Below, one piece after another: positions 35,106 through 41,672 of a DNA stretch of 64,000 nt. The stretch's first letter is position 1; each line of letters starts with the position of its first letter. The notes beneath the pieces are model-generated. The model ran no database searches, had not been told where the DNA came from, and saw nothing but the letters and a program-made list of their open reading frames with translations. The position numbers were made by a program, and so were the translations under genes. Source of the stretch: Maribacter luteus (GTDB lineage: Bacteria; Bacteroidota; Bacteroidia; Flavobacteriales; Flavobacteriaceae); contig NZ_WKJH01000005.1 in NCBI RefSeq assembly GCF_009674825.1, forward strand, positions 1 to 64,000, given 5' to 3'.

Positions 35106-35687
35106 TCAATCTTCAAATATTTCAACGACCATTTCAATTTCAACAGCCATATTATTTGGTAATGAACCCATACCAACGGCAGCTCTTGCGTGCTTACCCC
35201 TATCACCAAAAACATCGACCATTAGATCCGAATACCCATTGATTACTTTTGAATGATCTTTAAATTCAGGTACTGCATTGACCATACCTGTGACTTGTAC
35301 AATACGTTTTATCTTATTCAGGTTCCCCAATTCAGATTTAAGTACGGATAATTGCTGAATACCTACGGATTTTGCCGCAGCGTAACCCTGATCTACATTA
35401 TACTCATCTCCCAATTTACCAATGATTGTTTCCCCTACTTCATTTTTTGGCCCTTTACCGGCTAAAAAAACAAGGTTCCCAGCACGAACGGCATGGACAT
35501 AATTAGCCAAAGGTGCTGAAATTTCCTGCAATTGCAGACCTAATTCTTCAAGCCGTTTTTCGGGATCGTACCCCTCGGGTGATTTCTGTTTCGAAATTTC
35601 CGGGGCTTTTACTTCTAGGTTATTTTTATTTCCGGATGTGCAGGAGGAGGCTATGATCAATACTGCCAGCAAGGTTAGATATTTCAT
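35106..35687 (-). CDS. RidA/YjgF-family lipoprotein
   Basis: This 193-residue protein has a lipoprotein signal (SSCTS, Cys near residue 16) followed by a linker. The RidA fold covers about residues 45-190: LGLQLQEISAPLANYVHAVRAGNLVFLAGKGP, then ARAAVGMGSLPNNMAVEIEMVVEIFED. The Arg of the ligand site (HARAAVG) is present. RidA normally destroys reactive enamines in the cytoplasm, so an outer-envelope lipoprotein form implies a different, extracytoplasmic role or substrate. A candidate -7 box, TATTTTTG, is read on the minus strand at 35713-35706. Confidence 0.82.
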   Translation of the reverse strand: MKYLTLLAVLIIASSCTSGNKNNLEVKAPEISKQKSPEGYDPEKRLEELGLQLQEISAPLANYVHAVRAGNLVFLAGKGPKNEVGETIIGKLGDEYNVDQGYAAAKSVGIQQLSVLKSELGNLNKIKRIVQVTGMVNAVPEFKDHSKVINGYSDLMVDVFGDRGKHARAAVGMGSLPNNMAVEIEMVVEIFED

Positions 35688-35740
35688 GGATAAGGTTCTT
35701 TAAACCAAAAATACTAAATTAGAATACAGTATATAAAAAA

Positions 35741-35773
35741 AGGGATAACCGAAATCACTTTCGAATTATCCCT
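35741..35773 (-). terminator. Terminator of the small-protein locus
   Basis: AGGGATAA (35741-35748) pairs with TTATCCCT (35766-35773), with an inner CGAAA/TTTCG stem. On the minus strand it is followed by a run of T, so it ends transcripts coming from the 35926-36247 genes. Confidence 0.75.
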
Positions 35774-35925
35774 GGGGGAACGTAACAAACACAACCCTCA
35801 TTATCTTACATCATGGATTTGAACCACGCTTGTCCAAAAATTGGATTTAGCTTATATGATATATCCTATGATTATAATTTTTGTCCTTGTCAGTCCTTTT
35901 TTCTTTTTCATTGATTTTTAACCGC

Positions 35926-36009
35926 TTACAATATGTTGTTAAGGATCTGTAGCATGATCATTATACTGAACAGAATTAATAACCCATAACCATTCTCTTT
36001 TCTTTTCAT
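35926..36009 (-). CDS. 27-residue single-helix membrane peptide
   Basis: The frame encodes MKRKENGYGLLILFSIMIML followed by QILNNIL. This is a basic N-terminus then one hydrophobic helix. The ATG lies 7 bases after the preceding stop, and GAGGAA at the end of that gene sits at ribosome-binding distance. The short length means chance is possible, but the operon position and the terminator downstream make a real small protein plausible. A further possible 19-residue frame at 35852-35911 is weaker. Confidence 0.45.
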   Translation of the reverse strand: MKRKENGYGLLILFSIMIMLQILNNIL

Positions 36010-36016
36010 AGCAATT

Positions 36017-36247
36017 TTACTCTTCCTCAATTGCGAAACCCATTCTTTTCAACTGATTCTCGTTACGCATTTCTTGCAATTCAAATTTTAGCACATCGCC
36101 AATAAAGGCCGATCCAACAAACAATTCCTCATCACGCCCAGCGCGTTTTATTTCTTGGCCCCTATTTGTGTCCTTCTTAATTCCTGAATCCTTTAAATAA
36201 TTATTCCTTAACGTTAAAAGATCGTTCCATTTTCCCTGATTAGGCAT
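36017..36247 (-). CDS. Small charged hypothetical protein
   Basis: This 76-residue soluble protein is rich in charged residues (MPNQGKWNDLLTLRNNYLKD...). It has two short helices and an acidic C-terminus (...GFAIEEE). No family is recognised. It probably shares a transcript with the tiny membrane peptide that follows. A strong hairpin (36306-36334) lies upstream, isolating this unit from the next gene. Confidence 0.55.
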   Translation of the reverse strand: MPNQGKWNDLLTLRNNYLKDSGIKKDTNRGQEIKRAGRDEELFVGSAFIGDVLKFELQEMRNENQLKRMGFAIEEE

Positions 36248-36305
36248 TGTGCATTATATTTTGTCCATTCAACGTTGTTGACCCTACGGGTCTTTTATTC
36301 TATTA

Positions 36306-36334
36306 AAAAAAGACCCTGCAAGCAGGGTCTTTTA
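36306..36334. terminator. Bidirectional terminator
   Basis: A perfect stem, AAAAGACCCTGC and GCAGGGTCTTTT, closes on an AA loop between two minus-strand genes. It ends the upstream unit (36532-36696). Confidence 0.85.
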
Positions 36335-36531
36335 AACCAACCAACTAATTAAAACCTAAATTACTTTAATTACTATCAAAACCCTGGTTGGTTTTTTCAG
36401 TCCATTGGAAAAACCAATTAAAATTCCAATGGATTTAAACGGATAAAACGGTTAGTGTTAGTATAGCATTCTATCCCTTAATATTTTTGGGATGGTCTTT
36501 TAGGTTTTACCTTTCGGCCATCCTTAGATTT

Positions 36532-36696
36532 TCACTTTTCCATTCTGATAATCCTATTCAGATTGTTCTGACCAACTTTTGATTTTATCATTATTTTGCG
36601 TTTCAGCAATTTAGTCGGTAGAATAATGTATAGTGTCGTTAAAAAGACAATTACACTGATTCCAAAAAATAGTTCTACTAAAATAGATGTGTTCAT
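36532..36696 (-). CDS. Small membrane protein
   Basis: I start at the ATG at 36696 (54 residues, MNTSILVELFFGISVIVFLTT); the longer frame uses an upstream start and adds 17 polar residues. It has one hydrophobic helix (about residues 5-25) followed by a very basic tail (KLLKRKIMIKSKVG). A candidate -7 box, TAGATTTG, is read on the minus strand at 36752-36745. No family is recognised. Confidence 0.5.
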   Translation of the reverse strand: MNTSILVELFFGISVIVFLTTLYIILPTKLLKRKIMIKSKVGQNNLNRIIRMEK

Positions 36697-36922
36697 ATGT
36701 GTTCGATAACTGTAGAATCGTTCTCCTTGAATTCTAATTACACACAAATCTAAACAAGTGTTTAATCTTAAATTGAAGAAAAGAGTGAAGAGAATTATTT
36801 GTCGATAAACAGCATGTTTTATTCGATGTAATACATTTTTATAGGTATTTTCTTACTTTTTTGCTTAATATAAGTAGAATCAGCAAAGAAAAATATCCCT
36901 GATTGATCTAGTATCGTGCTTC

Positions 36923-38455
36923 TTACTTAAGAAACTTGACCATGGTGTTAAGGAGTTCATCAAAATCGAATGGTTTTGTTACAACGGCATTCATTCCCAA
37001 TGATAAATAATCCTCAATGCTTTCCTCGAAAACATTGGCTGTAACCCCGATAATCGGGATTTTTTTAATGTTCTTAAAAGGGAATTCACGTATTAATTTG
37101 GTTATTTGATCCCCAGAAACATTGGGAAGGTCAACATCCATAAGAATGATGTCATAGGAATTGTTGATCACGGTCTCGAAAACCAGCGCCCCGTCATTGA
37201 CCAAATCAATATAAAAGAAATTGGTGTCCATAAGTGTTTTGAACAATACCATTTGTGTTCGTTCATCATCCTCAACCAGTAAAACCTTATATTTTTTATC
37301 TGCCTTCAACTTACTTATATCAGGATTCTTCTTTTTGGCCCTATCTATCGGTTTTGATGCAAGATCTAAAGCATATGTAAGTGTAATATCAAAATAAAAA
37401 GTGGTGCCTTTGCCCAGTTCGGATTTTACATGGACCTCACTTCCCATTAAACCGACCAACCCCTTTACGATTGAAAGTCCCAAACCTGCCCCTTCCTTTT
37501 TACCCTCGGATTCTAATTGGATAAAGCTTTCAAATATGGCATTTGTCTTTTCCGAAGGTATCCCCACACCGGTATCGGAAACTTCGAATCGCAAACTAAC
37601 CTTATTCGCCCTTTTTTGGTTAAGCGATACATTCAGGGTTATCGTACCTTCTTCGGTAAATTTCAAGGCATTGTCAAGTAAATTCGTAAGAACCTGGAAT
37701 ACCCTTAAACGATCACCTTCTATAAATTCAGGGATTTTCTTATCATAATCCATTTTAAAACGAATGGCACCCCCATTGGTTTTTGACCGGTAGGTAAAAT
37801 CGATTAGCTCTAGCAAACTAATAAGACTGAATATCTTGTTCCTTAACTGTAATTTACCGGAAGCGATCATGCTTATACTCATGATGTCATCGAGCAATAA
37901 TTTTAGATTGGTATTCGATTCTTTCAGAAAATCGACCATTTGGCTTTGCTCGTTATTCAATTTACTACCTTCAAGTAGTTTGGTAATTGAAATTATACTC
38001 GTTAACGGATTTCTTAATTCGTGACTGAAATTACGGATAAAAGCATTTTTAAACCGTTCCCTTTCTTCCAGTTCCAAATTCTTTAGAACAACCAATTCCG
38101 AATTGATTATAGATTCGTTCCTTGCCTGTGCAATCTGTTGGTACGAGTTATAATGCCCGGTAAGGTTATAAATAACGAGAAGGACCAGCTTCCCCTTCTT
38201 CATCATTTTTACATCGGTAATGAACTCTTTTTCATTAAACTCCAGATGAACGCAATTATAGGTCATCGTTTCGTCAGAAATATCTAAAAAAGCCGAATAT
38301 GTAGCGAAAAAAGGGTGTAATTCATAGATATAATCCCCTAAGTTCAGTTCTATGAATGTCTGATCACTTTCAAGGATCGTCCCTTCTTGATCGATAAGGA
38401 CAAATTGTATGTTCTGATTAATGTATTGTTCTTTGTACTGCTTAAGAGAGGTCAT
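36923..38455 (-). CDS. Hybrid sensor histidine kinase with receiver domain
   Basis: In this 510-residue protein, residues about 1-110 look like a PAS-type sensor (VLIDQEGTILESDQTFIELN). The HisKA helix follows with the phosphorylated His145 (FSHELRNPLTS). The HATPase has N-box Asn262 (TNLLDNALKF), G1 SDTGVGI and G2 GAGLGLSIV. The receiver (about 388-510) has acidic residues DD in VEDDERT, acceptor Asp440 (IILMD) and conserved TKPF. No membrane helix is seen, so it is cytoplasmic. Its ATG overlaps the GTPase stop by 14 bases, linking it to the small-GTPase operon as the last gene. Confidence 0.92.
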   Translation of the reverse strand: MTSLKQYKEQYINQNIQFVLIDQEGTILESDQTFIELNLGDYIYELHPFFATYSAFLDISDETMTYNCVHLEFNEKEFITDVKMMKKGKLVLLVIYNLTGHYNSYQQIAQARNESIINSELVVLKNLELEERERFKNAFIRNFSHELRNPLTSIISITKLLEGSKLNNEQSQMVDFLKESNTNLKLLLDDIMSISMIASGKLQLRNKIFSLISLLELIDFTYRSKTNGGAIRFKMDYDKKIPEFIEGDRLRVFQVLTNLLDNALKFTEEGTITLNVSLNQKRANKVSLRFEVSDTGVGIPSEKTNAIFESFIQLESEGKKEGAGLGLSIVKGLVGLMGSEVHVKSELGKGTTFYFDITLTYALDLASKPIDRAKKKNPDISKLKADKKYKVLLVEDDERTQMVLFKTLMDTNFFYIDLVNDGALVFETVINNSYDIILMDVDLPNVSGDQITKLIREFPFKNIKKIPIIGVTANVFEESIEDYLSLGMNAVVTKPFDFDELLNTMVKFLK

Positions 38456-38939
38456 TCAATAACGTTGCTAAATGGGTGAACATTTCATTTACACTGTCCC
38501 CTGTTTTTGCACTGGTGAGATAATCCGCTTTTATACCATTGTCCTTAAGGAGAATTTGCAGTTCATCATTGATTACCAGATCTTTTTTGTTGCCTACGAC
38601 GATCAATGGTGTGTCGGGGGTTTTCTGGGCAACAATTTCTAAATCCCTATTTAAATTTTGGAAGGTAGATGGTCTACTAACATCAAAAACGAAGACTACC
38701 CCGTGGGTGCCCAATAAATAGGCCTGCCTGATCATCTGTACCTCATCTGTCCCTTCAAGGTCCCAAATTATCAATGAAACCGATTCATCAGCATTTACCT
38801 CAACAACTTTTTTAGTGATATGAACACCTATTGTTACCTTGTATTTATCTGAAAAACTATCTTCTACAAATCTGCGGATCAATGATGTTTTACCAACACC
38901 GAAATGACCCAGTATTACTATTTTCTTAGATTTTTGCAT
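38442..38939 (-). CDS. Ras-like small GTPase
   Basis: I start at the ATG at 38939 (165 residues); the longer frame uses a TTG two codons before. The G-domain motifs are intact: G1 GHFGVGKT (residues 11-18), G2 Thr36, G3 D-L-E-G-T (60-64), G4 NKKD (117-120) and G5 SAK (143-145). Position 64 is Thr where Ras has the catalytic Gln61, so intrinsic hydrolysis may be low and a partner needed. It is in the Rab/Ras-like (Rup-type) group of prokaryotic GTPases. It overlaps both flanking genes by 14 bases each, so strict co-expression is expected. Confidence 0.9.
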   Translation of the reverse strand: MQKSKKIVILGHFGVGKTSLIRRFVEDSFSDKYKVTIGVHITKKVVEVNADESVSLIIWDLEGTDEVQMIRQAYLLGTHGVVFVFDVSRPSTFQNLNRDLEIVAQKTPDTPLIVVGNKKDLVINDELQILLKDNGIKADYLTSAKTGDSVNEMFTHLATLLNDLS

Positions 38940-39777
38940 TGCCAAAATATTCTGCGAGCTTTTTTTCTATGAGTTTTGTACTTATTGTATCTGCAGGATG
39001 TTCAAGATGACGACTCGTATAAATCAAATCGAGGTTCATTTCCATGAAATTATGGTAAAAATCAAAAATGATATCCTGCACTTTGTCTTTTGTCTTTAAA
39101 CTATAAGAGCCAGAAATTACTACGGCAACGTAATAGTTCACGAAACTTTGTATGTGAATATTATATAACTCGTATTCGATAAGTTCCAGTTCCTGGTTTT
39201 TCTGGTTAAAAGCATCCTCAACAAAAGATTTAATCGCAGTCAGCATTCCGGAGATCATCTCTTCGTCAATAGTTTCGGTCTTGGAGTAACCTGCTTTTAA
39301 CAGTCCCGAATCCCTTTCTATCAACAAAACCTGTTCTACCTTTTCTGAAGATAAGTCATTTAATAGTAATTCTTTCTCTTTACTTCCTCCGAAAAATGAT
39401 CGTAACCTTCTTTTCCATGCGGATATAAAGCTCAACTGGTTATCTATCTTTTCCGATAGCACCTTTATTTCTTGAGCAACATATTTTTTGACCATTTTAC
39501 CTAAAATAGGGTACAACGCATCGACAACCTCATCTTTATGGTTGTGGATTTCCCTCTTTAAGGTTTCGGTAATTACAGGGCCAAGGGTGTTGGGTATGTT
39601 CTTTGCGAAATCATCTATTTGCCTTTCCACAATGGGATTGACCCTAGACGCGAATTTTTCCCTGTTGTTATAGGTTTGCTCCAACAATTCGATACGGTCG
39701 GCGATTTTATCAATATCTTCCCGATCCTCGGTGAATAAAATATCCTTAAGAATTTCCAGCCTATCTTTTTCGCTCAT
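38926..39777 (-). CDS. Roadblock/longin-like domain protein, putative GTPase partner
   Basis: This 283-residue soluble protein has an N-terminal half (about 1-125) that is helical and charged (LLEQTYNNREKFASRVNPIVERQIDDF, KMVKKYVAQEIKVLSEKI), with a basic patch WKRRLRSFFGG. The C-terminal half (about 145-250) has the strand-helix-strand order of Roadblock/LC7 or longin domains: EQVLLIERDSGLLKAGYSK, a helix MISGMLTAIKSFVEDAF, then IEYELYNIHIQSFVNYYVAVVISG. Such domains include MglB, which acts on the small GTPase MglA. The domain call is by pattern only. The stop overlaps the GTPase start by 14 bases, favouring a direct complex. Confidence 0.7.
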   Translation of the reverse strand: MSEKDRLEILKDILFTEDREDIDKIADRIELLEQTYNNREKFASRVNPIVERQIDDFAKNIPNTLGPVITETLKREIHNHKDEVVDALYPILGKMVKKYVAQEIKVLSEKIDNQLSFISAWKRRLRSFFGGSKEKELLLNDLSSEKVEQVLLIERDSGLLKAGYSKTETIDEEMISGMLTAIKSFVEDAFNQKNQELELIEYELYNIHIQSFVNYYVAVVISGSYSLKTKDKVQDIIFDFYHNFMEMNLDLIYTSRHLEHPADTISTKLIEKKLAEYFGNAKI

Positions 39778-39798
39778 TCGAATTGCCGTTGGGGCGTA

Positions 39799-40155
39799 TT
39801 ATTTACTACTGACTTTTTCACCCAATTCTATGAGCAATTTACCAAGTGTGTCCTTGGCTATACTTTTTTCCTCCAAATCTTCCATCTTGGTTTCCAAACT
39901 TTTCTCCAAGTCGGTAATCCTGATATTAACATCTGTCGAAACATCGTCGATTGATTTTCTCAAATCGGACCCAACTTCCTCGATTAAATCCTCTAACACC
40001 TTTTTCTTATTGAGAATATCTTCTTTTAAAGCTTCGAATTCAGCATCATAAGCTTCAATACTCTCACCGAATATAAGATTTTTGATTGCCTCGATCTTTG
40101 AGTCTGGGTCTTGGTTTCCGTGTAATTTAATTACAGCCTTTTGGTTCTTTGACAT
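39799..40155 (-). CDS. Coiled-coil protein opening the GTPase operon
   Basis: This 118-residue soluble protein has almost continuous helix with heptad-like leucine/isoleucine/valine spacing (about residues 35-115: YDAEFEALKEDILNKKKVLEDLIEEVGSDLRKSIDDVSTDVNIRITDLEKSLETKMEDLEEKS). No membrane or catalytic motif is seen. It is first in a four-gene unit and ends 21 bases before the Roadblock-like gene. It may scaffold or oligomerise the GTPase system; no family is recognised. Confidence 0.75.
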   Translation of the reverse strand: MSKNQKAVIKLHGNQDPDSKIEAIKNLIFGESIEAYDAEFEALKEDILNKKKVLEDLIEEVGSDLRKSIDDVSTDVNIRITDLEKSLETKMEDLEEKSIAKDTLGKLLIELGEKVSSK

Positions 40156-40511
40156 TTAGGTTTTATTTAGAAGGTTTTGATGTTTTTATTGGCAATTGAA
40201 TTTACTTTCTACCCGAGTTCATTCAACTTCACTCCAAAGTGGGGTAATTAATCCCAAGTCAATGAAATATAGTGATTTCGAGCAAGTTTTCAAAGATATA
40301 ATATTTTAGGTTTCTAATTCACATATATCAAAAGCAAACCATTAATGGCCGTAAAGTACCGCTACTATTAAGAAAATAGCCGTTTTTTGGGACATTTTCA
40401 GGTTGTTTCCTTTGGGAAATTGTATACAACATGCATGCCAAGAAGTCGGCACTTTTGGAAACAAAGCCATATTTAATCGAAAAAACCTTGTTTTTGCGGC
40501 CTTGAATGCAG
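40156..40511. other. Upstream region of the GTPase operon
   Basis: The gap holds no coding frame. No exact TAnnTTTG box or TTTG pair is apparent on the minus strand. Regulation of the operon cannot be read from it. Confidence 0.4.
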
Positions 40512-41672
40512 CTAAAGATTGAATATTTGGTGAATATTCACCTTTGCAAAACCCGGACTACCGGTTAAGCCATTTTTCCCGATCCCAGTAACAATGTGTA
40601 TGTTTTCGCCTATCGTTTCCCGGTAAACATCAGCCGTTTTACAATGGGAATAAAGTCCGTACCACCGTCGCTGTATTTCATAGGTTGGAAGGTCAAGTAT
40701 TTTTTTAGCTTCCTCAATAATAAAATTATCAATATCCACATTCAAATCCATTCCCAATCTATTGACCTTGGATATATCTGCGGATTCGTGAGAATTACCA
40801 AGGATAACAGAACCGTCCAAACCTTGTTTAAAACTGATTTGTACCCCCCATTTGTCCTTAATGGAATTTTCCTTCTCTTTGGCTTTTATAGCAGCATACG
40901 AAGGACATTCATGAAATGCTGCATATGTACGTATCGATTGACCGGTAAGAACTGAACCCGGTAATTTATAGTTTGGTTGTGGTTTGGTCTGCATCATCTG
41001 TAGCTTTGAAACCACAAGATCACTTTCATTGAACAAAGTCGGGTATAAGGTCTTAAAATCCGTGCCATTACAAATGACAACTTTGGCCGCTGAAAGGGAT
41101 TTATTGTTTGAACATTGTATTTCAATTCCGTTAGACAAGATATCGCAGTCTATCACATTGCAATTGGCAAAAATGACTAATCCGGCGGCCTTGAGATAAT
41201 CATGTAACCTATTTACCATTAATCGGGGCTCAACCATTATCTCCTCAGGGAAAAAAAGTCCGGATGCAACATAATCCTTGCACAATCCAGGATAATTATC
41301 CAGACATTCCGATTTAGTCAACAAAACAGAAGGGTAATCGTTATTCCTATTTATCCTGTTCAGCTCTACAAGTAGTTGTTCCTCTTCAGGGGTAGATGCA
41401 AAATACACGCTTCCTTCTTTCCGTACTGTAATATTGAACTGTTGTTGTATCTCTTTGTATATCCTTAAACTCTCCCTTCCAAAAAGTTGCCACTTGCTGT
41501 TCATTCCCGAAGGTAACACTTGGCCATAATTACATACCGTTGCCCCTTGCGGAGTATCATCTTTTTCAACCAAGGCCACTTTCAAACCTCTTTCGAGCGC
41601 ATGATAAGCATGAAATGTCCCCAGAATCCCACCTCCTACTACAATAAGATCATACTGTGGTCGTATCCTCAT
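40512..41672 (-). CDS. FAD-dependent oxidoreductase (DAO/TIGR03364-like)
   Basis: This 386-residue cytoplasmic protein has the FAD dinucleotide fold at the N-terminus (YDLIVVGGGILGTFHAYHALERG...LVEKDD). The GQVLPSGMNSKWQLFGRESLRIYK and C-terminal GIGKNGLTGSPGFA regions are typical of the TIGR03364 branch of D-amino-acid-oxidase-like enzymes. Members oxidise amines or phosphonate-derived amines; no phosphonate gene is adjacent, so the substrate is open. The gap 41673-42018 to the divergent operon has no visible gene. Confidence 0.85.
   Translation of the reverse strand: MRIRPQYDLIVVGGGILGTFHAYHALERGLKVALVEKDDTPQGATVCNYGQVLPSGMNSKWQLFGRESLRIYKEIQQQFNITVRKEGSVYFASTPEEEQLLVELNRINRNNDYPSVLLTKSECLDNYPGLCKDYVASGLFFPEEIMVEPRLMVNRLHDYLKAAGLVIFANCNVIDCDILSNGIEIQCSNNKSLSAAKVVICNGTDFKTLYPTLFNESDLVVSKLQMMQTKPQPNYKLPGSVLTGQSIRTYAAFHECPSYAAIKAKEKENSIKDKWGVQISFKQGLDGSVILGNSHESADISKVNRLGMDLNVDIDNFIIEEAKKILDLPTYEIQRRWYGLYSHCKTADVYRETIGENIHIVTGIGKNGLTGSPGFAKVNIHQIFNL

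Follow-up and report, generated by a model that had tools for sequence, protein, structure and literature searches.

A Group 1 Rup signalling cassette of Maribacter luteus, with a probable route from a Rab-like GTPase to a PAS-containing histidine kinase

We analyzed a window of 64,000 nucleotides from Maribacter luteus (assembly GCF_009674825.1, contig NZ_WKJH01000005.1, positions 1 to 64,000), in which four minus-strand genes encode a coiled-coil-like protein (CC), a conserved-domain protein (RB), a small GTPase, and a hybrid histidine kinase (HK). That these genes are the Group 1 Rup signalling cassette in its flavobacterial form is well supported. The Group 1 Rup neighbourhood was described in a 2014 survey (Wuichet & Sogaard-Andersen 2014, PMC4316618) as a Rab-like GTPase, a coiled coil, an unknown-domain protein often carrying a membrane helix and OmpA, and a signalling output; Bacteroidetes were listed among its holders. 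An earlier reading made from the letters of the window (the sequence-only reading) had called the locus the best candidate for an undescribed system, a claim that this prior description overturns. Within the cassette, RB probably sets the GTPase, which would in turn switch the output protein through the helix leaving its PAS domain and a glutamine, Gln110. The features of the locus are as follows; aa stands for amino acids, ORF for open reading frame, and pLDDT for the predicted local distance difference test.

39799..40155, minus strand: CC, 118-aa coiled-coil-like helical protein, cassette gene 1 (ORF)
38926..39777, minus strand: RB, 283-aa conserved-domain protein without a membrane helix or OmpA tail (ORF and profile homology)
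39343..39777, minus strand: RB residues 1–145, helical, of low model confidence (AlphaFold2, pLDDT blocks 39–72)
38929..39342, minus strand: RB residues 146–283, predicted Roadblock/longin-superfamily domain (AlphaFold2, pLDDT blocks 51–87; VIA-align, Foldseek, hhalign)
38442..38939, minus strand: GTPase, 165-aa (from ATG) Rab-like small GTPase of Rup type (Pfam Ras, G1–G5 motifs)
38751..38762, minus strand: GTPase G3 motif DLEG, followed by Thr where Gln is usual (sequence and alignment)
36923..38455, minus strand: HK, 510-aa hybrid histidine kinase (PAS - HisKA - HATPase_c - receiver), the output protein (Pfam; PAS from the model)
38162..38416, minus strand: predicted HK PAS domain, residues 14–98 (model pLDDT 91.8 and VIA-align)
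38063..38161, minus strand: predicted HK PAS exit (signalling) helix, residues 99–131, leading to HisKA (model)
38126..38128, minus strand: HK Gln110 codon, invariant glutamine (alignments)
38021..38023, minus strand: HK His145 (in HELRN), phospho-acceptor (Pfam and sequence)
37136..37138, minus strand: HK Asp440 (in LMD), receiver phospho-acceptor (Pfam and sequence)

The sequence-only reading had described four packed minus-strand genes, and its coordinates, the 21-base gap between CC and RB, the RB/GTPase and GTPase/HK overlaps of 14 bases each, His145, and Asp440 all agree with the ORFs. Its Ras-like GTPase was confirmed by a match to Pfam Ras (E 4.4e-32) together with motifs G1–G5, and its hybrid kinase by HisKA, HATPase_c, and Response_reg matches above the cut-off, with the PAS domain coming from the model. 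In the scan of the four products, no Pfam or NCBIfam family was found above the cut-off for CC and RB; the coiled-coil nature of CC was judged by reading its sequence and not computed. None of the four proteins has a strongly hydrophobic stretch. Among the best 80 of 441 named relatives of RB, the nearest belonged to Maribacter, with a best identity of 89%.

The closest solved chains to the GTPase were Sec4 (1e-25), Rab35, and Ypt7. Its motifs include G1, LGHFGVGKTS, and SAKTG. The five G motifs reported by the sequence-only reading were present; that reading did not mention that G3 (DLEG-T) lacks the catalytic glutamine. The column after DxxG holds Thr in the window; of 125 aligned cassette GTPases, counted over overlapping sets, only 6 have Gln there. 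This agrees with the account of Group 1 Rup GTPases as lacking the G3 glutamine, in which the N-terminus of the output holds an invariant glutamine, possibly acting in trans (PMC4316618). The GTPase contains no cysteine anywhere and therefore no prenyl tail. A search of the genome with it gave no other strong match, the runner-up being a 472-aa frame at E 0.004.

One column of the aligned output proteins, that of Gln110 in HK, is Gln in all 22 sequences, 9 of them near and 13 distant. The same column was Gln in all 87 flavobacterial N-termini from a scan of named genomes, whose loci represent the best 80 of 441 relatives and overlap the family sample described below, and in 35 of the 36 rows of alignment A2. 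Gln110 probably corresponds to the invariant glutamine of the published Group 1 Rup outputs (PMC4316618). Residues 14–98 of HK are predicted from the model to be a PAS domain, with Gln110 on the helix leaving the fold. VIA-align matched the HK N-terminus to photoactive yellow protein (Z 10.9), and the best 50 rows (Z 10.0–10.9) read as PAS or PAS-containing chains; Foldseek returned phytochrome and other PAS chains for the PAS model, along with some Roadblock-fold chains sharing the core (an outer-arm dynein entry at E 4.9e-4, Ragulator). No Pfam PAS match was found at the HK N-terminus.

The four genes are inherited together. In a family sample of 149 genomes, from which 31 neighbourhoods were fetched, the 32 genomes with CC homologues were exactly those with RB homologues. 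GTPase orthologues (E<=4e-37) were present in 30 of them and absent from the remaining 117. The other GTPase matches in family genomes were frames of 462–508 aa, aligned mostly over the C-terminal half, which by reading resemble the tRNA GTPase MnmE. The two CC/RB genomes without a GTPase orthologue were G062, with stop codons in its copy, and G079, with a contig edge. The order CC-RB-GTPase-kinase was found in 29 of the 31 neighbourhoods (23 without additions, 4 interrupted by an extra short PAS gene, three of these also by a second GTPase, and 2 with a second kinase behind); the remaining two were one degraded copy and one contig edge. All four genes were present in 79 of the 80 named-scan loci, with the kinase split over two frames in 4 and locus L105 lacking a GTPase frame. 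Of 108 loci, 81 have an RB/GTPase gene overlap of exactly 14 bases.

Several further observations concern the family loci. The degraded copy L063 (G062:C53) has three stop codons in the RB match and two in the CC match, and the cassette seems to be decaying in genome G062. Locus L054 keeps only a 139-aa PAS protein inside the cassette. Among loci L034–L062, 19 of 29 (e.g., L037, L043, and L060) share flanks that read as aspartate kinase and GNAT acetyltransferase, names given by reading in a comparison that did not include the window; these common flanks point to an old fixed locus. No RNA families were matched within 35600–40600. Promoter-like sites numbered 11 against 13.4 expected; the Bacteroidetes-type promoter consensus pattern occurred 4 times in the window against 4.8 expected and was not found upstream of the cassette. 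Terminator-like sites (6 observed, 2.8 expected) all lay within genes and were not used.

Beyond the family, RB matches at E<=1e-4 were found in 14 of 395 genomes sampled across the phylum, two of these being the window's own genome and genus. The sequence-only reading had proposed a search for the four-gene order across Bacteroidota; the gene set proved to be conserved far beyond close relatives, recurring in phylum members of distant families and on Mesorhizobium, Rhizobium, and Nostoc plasmids (the latter two read from ORFs). CC profile matches lay beside 12 of 13 distant copies (all except L172), and a GTPase was found within 10 of the 13 neighbourhoods. In six of these ten the GTPase runs co-linear with CC-RB, and in four it is divergent, L172 being the locus without a CC match. 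In L165, L167, and L170, CC and a long tailed RB were present, and no GTPase or output match was found within ~4.5–5.7 kb on either side. The annotated order on the Mesorhizobium plasmid (L173) was hypothetical protein, OmpA family protein, Rab family GTPase, and adenylate/guanylate cyclase; on the plasmids of Rhizobium (L175) and Nostoc (L174), where no genes are listed, the ORFs followed this order too, the outputs being a cyclase in the former and a kinase in the latter. The eight outputs assigned by Pfam comprised four kinases (L164 and L169; L160 and L174, with receiver and Hpt), two sigma-54 activators (L161, L163), and two cyclases (L173, L175). The fourth gene therefore varies by lineage, while its N-terminal region and the glutamine stay constant.

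RB itself also differs between lineages. Its length was 589–636 aa in 12 of 13 distant neighbourhoods and 763–1021 aa in plasmid copies, with one tail-less protein of 280 aa (L160). The RB profile was homologous to OmpA-tailed proteins (full-sequence E 9.9e-58 to 4.8e-23), and OmpA was detected by Pfam in all five long RB proteins scanned. The maximum mean hydrophobicity over 19 residues was 1.04 for the window RB versus 1.88–2.53 in 13 of 13 tailed RB proteins measured. The flavobacterial cassette is a version without the membrane/OmpA tail. By reading, the OmpA-tailed proteins at L173:5854-8919 and L175:5842-8907 contain about four near-identical repeats of some 120–140 residues that separate the membrane helix from the OmpA domain. 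The RB N-terminal halves of L161, L163, and L174, also by reading, have an apparent variable number of ~22-residue A-L-x-P repeats, more than the window RB; the RB profile matched twice in these repeat-bearing halves.

The sequence-only reading had invoked MglA/MglB and mentioned polarity or gliding control as a conceivable function. A polarity or gliding switch of this kind would have in its favour that a Roadblock/longin-class partner adjoins a Ras-like GTPase as in MglAB, and the comparison stands by fold and logic only: the GTPase is Rab-like, not MglA-like, and no protein of the genome matched the Roadblock model PF03259 at E<=10 (none on the window RB at E<=1). No MglA was present among the best 60 of 878 solved GTPase relatives, and two neighbours, which we take to be MglA-type from their P-loop, scored 14.7–14.8 bits to the cassette GTPase profile versus 132.6–252.2 bits for the seven cassette GTPases listed. 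Moreover, gldJ was found in 148 of the 149 family genomes (143 above the cut-off) versus 32 with the cassette; the cassette is therefore no obligate part of gliding, and an obligate gliding-control role is disfavoured. Other lineages also couple the cassette to cyclases or transcription activators. An MglA/MglB-like switch is highly improbable, and a polarity or gliding role is not indicated.

The support for assigning RB residues 146–283 to the Roadblock/longin superfamily is good but not decisive. The sequence-only reading had seen such a domain in the last 110 residues; the predicted fold was supported by the model, Foldseek, and VIA-align, while its extent is nearer 138 residues. The AlphaFold2 model, built from 64 sequences, shows in the C-terminal part the order b-b-a-b-b-b-a-a (b, strand; a, helix). 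The best Foldseek matches were zeta-COP (E 6.1e-5) and small subunits of AP complexes, with TM-scores of 0.47–0.66 by target length for the first five; Rag, Ragulator, and Mon1-Ccz1 ranked below them. VIA-align gave Sec22b (Z 13.7, 123 residues at 2.6 A), AP sigma chains (13.1–13.2), COPI (13.2), Mon1-Ccz1 (12.2), TRAPP subunits (10.6–11.8), the SRP receptor (10.9), and a Lokiarchaeal longin (10.7), and the best 50 rows read as longin-type folds; the identity of RB to the matched chains is only 5–14%. Longins carry an extra helix at the C-terminus, and Roadblock proteins carry one ahead of strand 1. In RB, a C-terminal helix is predicted at 267–278, with L274 and F278 nearly invariant, and a low-confidence helix at 134–143 precedes strand 1; the latter would also suit a Roadblock arrangement and is the point from which the Roadblock profile aligns. 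An hhalign comparison of RB with a profile of 46 Bacteroidota Roadblock sequences scored 29.5 (P 1.7e-4) over 86 columns in matching order, the maximum of 60 shuffles being 15.5. Controls scored 10.5 (RB-PAS), 21.1 (PAS-Roadblock), and 15.4 (GTPase-Roadblock), and the profile match was kept as weak support.

Three results speak against this assignment. The RB model had a mean pLDDT of 65 and a predicted template-modelling score of 0.45, with residues 146–250 in blocks of 60–87 and a poor helical N-terminal half. The hhalign control of RB against the GTPase profile reached 28.0 over 40 columns, hardly below the Roadblock score. Finally, no longin or Roadblock was found among the 25 commonest of the 103 Pfam families matched by the 64 RB relatives at E<=10. 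Two candidates were also rejected. A search of the RB profile against Protein Data Bank sequences gave one match, nitrile hydratase at E 0.14, which was taken as chance. A shared N-terminal docking motif of CC and RB (IEAIKNLIF / LEILKDILF), alike by eye, scored 17.7–18.1 by hhalign at another place versus <=17.9 in 30 shuffles, and an RB-derived matrix failed to pick the motif in CC above shuffles.

RB might instead be a scaffold or anchor only, with the PAS output protein alone acting as both GTPase-activating protein (GAP) and effector, and no longin-based exchange. The OmpA tail found elsewhere suggests an anchor or cell-wall sensor, and the invariant glutamine sits in the output protein, not in RB; however, the predicted longin-class fold and the invariant residues in RB helix 172–191 (64 aligned sequences) argue for more than anchoring, and we regard a pure scaffold as unlikely. 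A Rab-like GTPase with a longin-class partner is read here as a Rab-type switch with its regulator.

In the mechanism that we favour, every functional step of which we infer, RB, probably dimeric and with CC as a scaffold, would be the platform setting the GDP/GTP state of the GTPase by exchange or hydrolysis. The GTP-loaded GTPase would dock on the PAS/exit helix of the output protein, where Gln110 might reach into the GTPase and supply the missing catalytic glutamine. Docking would switch the kinase (or the cyclase, or the sigma-54 activator), and hydrolysis would end the signal, which in the window would exit as phosphate on Asp440 toward a phosphotransfer partner. Where RB has an OmpA tail, the cell wall could provide the input; because these Flavobacteriaceae lack that tail, their input must be cytosolic or arrive via another partner. 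Three loci (L046, L048, and L051) have, immediately behind a GTPase gene, one for a 198–200-aa PAS protein lacking a kinase domain; another GTPase and the kinase come next, which indicates that the GTPase duplicate came with the PAS duplicate. Given the constant N-terminus with its glutamine, the changing enzyme, and these duplicates, the simplest reading is signalling from the GTPase to PAS, with the longin-type protein upstream.

The reverse direction would have the kinase sense, the phosphorelay set the GTPase, and the GTPase serve as the system output. Conservons (kinase, Roadblock, DUF, MglA-type GTPase) are read so in PMC4316618, and the HisKA, HATPase, and receiver domains of HK are all complete. 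However, the fourth gene elsewhere is a cyclase or sigma-54 activator, i.e., a non-phosphorylating output; its constant part is the N-terminal region with the glutamine; and the GTPase-paired PAS copies of the three loci above lack a kinase domain. The reverse direction is rather unlikely. Signalling from the GTPase to PAS has its own difficulties, and the following points weigh against it. Extra PAS kinases without an extra GTPase occur in L047, L057, and seven further loci. Six cassette GTPases keep Gln after DxxG, so the idea of a glutamine in trans need not apply to all, and the one exception in alignment A2, the short PAS paralogue of L054, lacks Gln110. No measurement of binding, exchange, hydrolysis, or phosphotransfer was found in the open-access literature, and the sequence does not settle the direction of the signal.

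The predicted Roadblock/longin fold and the glutamine on the PAS exit helix turn a list of genes into a testable circuit consisting of a GTPase regulator, a switch, a receptor helix, and an exchangeable output. All four proteins of the flavobacterial version could be purified and assayed, because they are small and have no strongly hydrophobic stretch. The cassette also bears on the origin of Rab-longin control, the GTPase/longin-type pairing resembling Rab-switch control in human cells. Published accounts assign longins to eukaryotes and Asgard archaea, and Roadblock (MglB) to bacteria (PMC10933270, PMC3521125); the table of one review lists 'Longin/Roadblock' as present in bacteria, both unseparated (PMC4917890). 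A bolder and doubtful proposal would take the Rup GTPase as a bacterial Rab, RB as a true longin exchange platform, and the PAS exit helix as completing the active site via Gln110, making the histidine kinase both effector and GAP. If true, Rab-longin control would predate eukaryotes and Asgard archaea, and MglA-Roadblock would be a sister arrangement.

Among known systems, the window cassette matches Group 1 Rup as set out in PMC4316618, sharing a GTPase without the G3 glutamine, a coiled-coil gene, a conserved-domain gene, and an output with an invariant N-terminal glutamine. It differs in that its RB lacks the membrane helix and OmpA that are 'often' present there and in that its output is a hybrid kinase with a receiver; the sigma-54 activator and nucleotide cyclase outputs of other lineages go beyond those named in the text of that survey. 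To the 2014 survey, our analysis adds the predicted fold of RB, the predicted PAS domain with the position of the glutamine on its exit helix, two output types, and the flavobacterial form without a tail. In that survey, the Rup family had one transcribed member and was otherwise uncharacterised experimentally (PMC4316618). In the open-access literature, we found neither an experiment on a Group 1 Rup system nor a longin described in one.

The actinobacterial conservon/AGPS (CvnA-D; PMC13343842) is likewise a four-gene operon, of a kinase, a Roadblock-class protein, a small protein, and a Ras-like GTPase. However, its MglA group 2 GTPase, its membrane-spanning kinase with an LPxR tail, and its MglB homologue CvnB (PMC4316618) are all absent from the window cassette; neither a CvnC-type domain of unknown function (DUF) nor an LPxR kinase end was found, CC having no Pfam family above the cut-off and HK ending in a receiver. 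MglA/MglB of Myxococcus and Thermus share with the window a small GTPase adjoining a Roadblock/longin-class partner, whereas the window has a GTPase of another family, a partner unrecognised by the Roadblock model, and a kinase in the gene set. Compared with the eukaryotic pairs of Rab and longin guanine nucleotide exchange factor (Mon1-Ccz1/Ypt7, TRAPP/Ypt1), the window set is bacterial, with a GTPase lacking the prenyl tail and an RB of low identity to the solved chains; the likeness lies in the combination of a Rab-like GTPase with a predicted longin-type domain.

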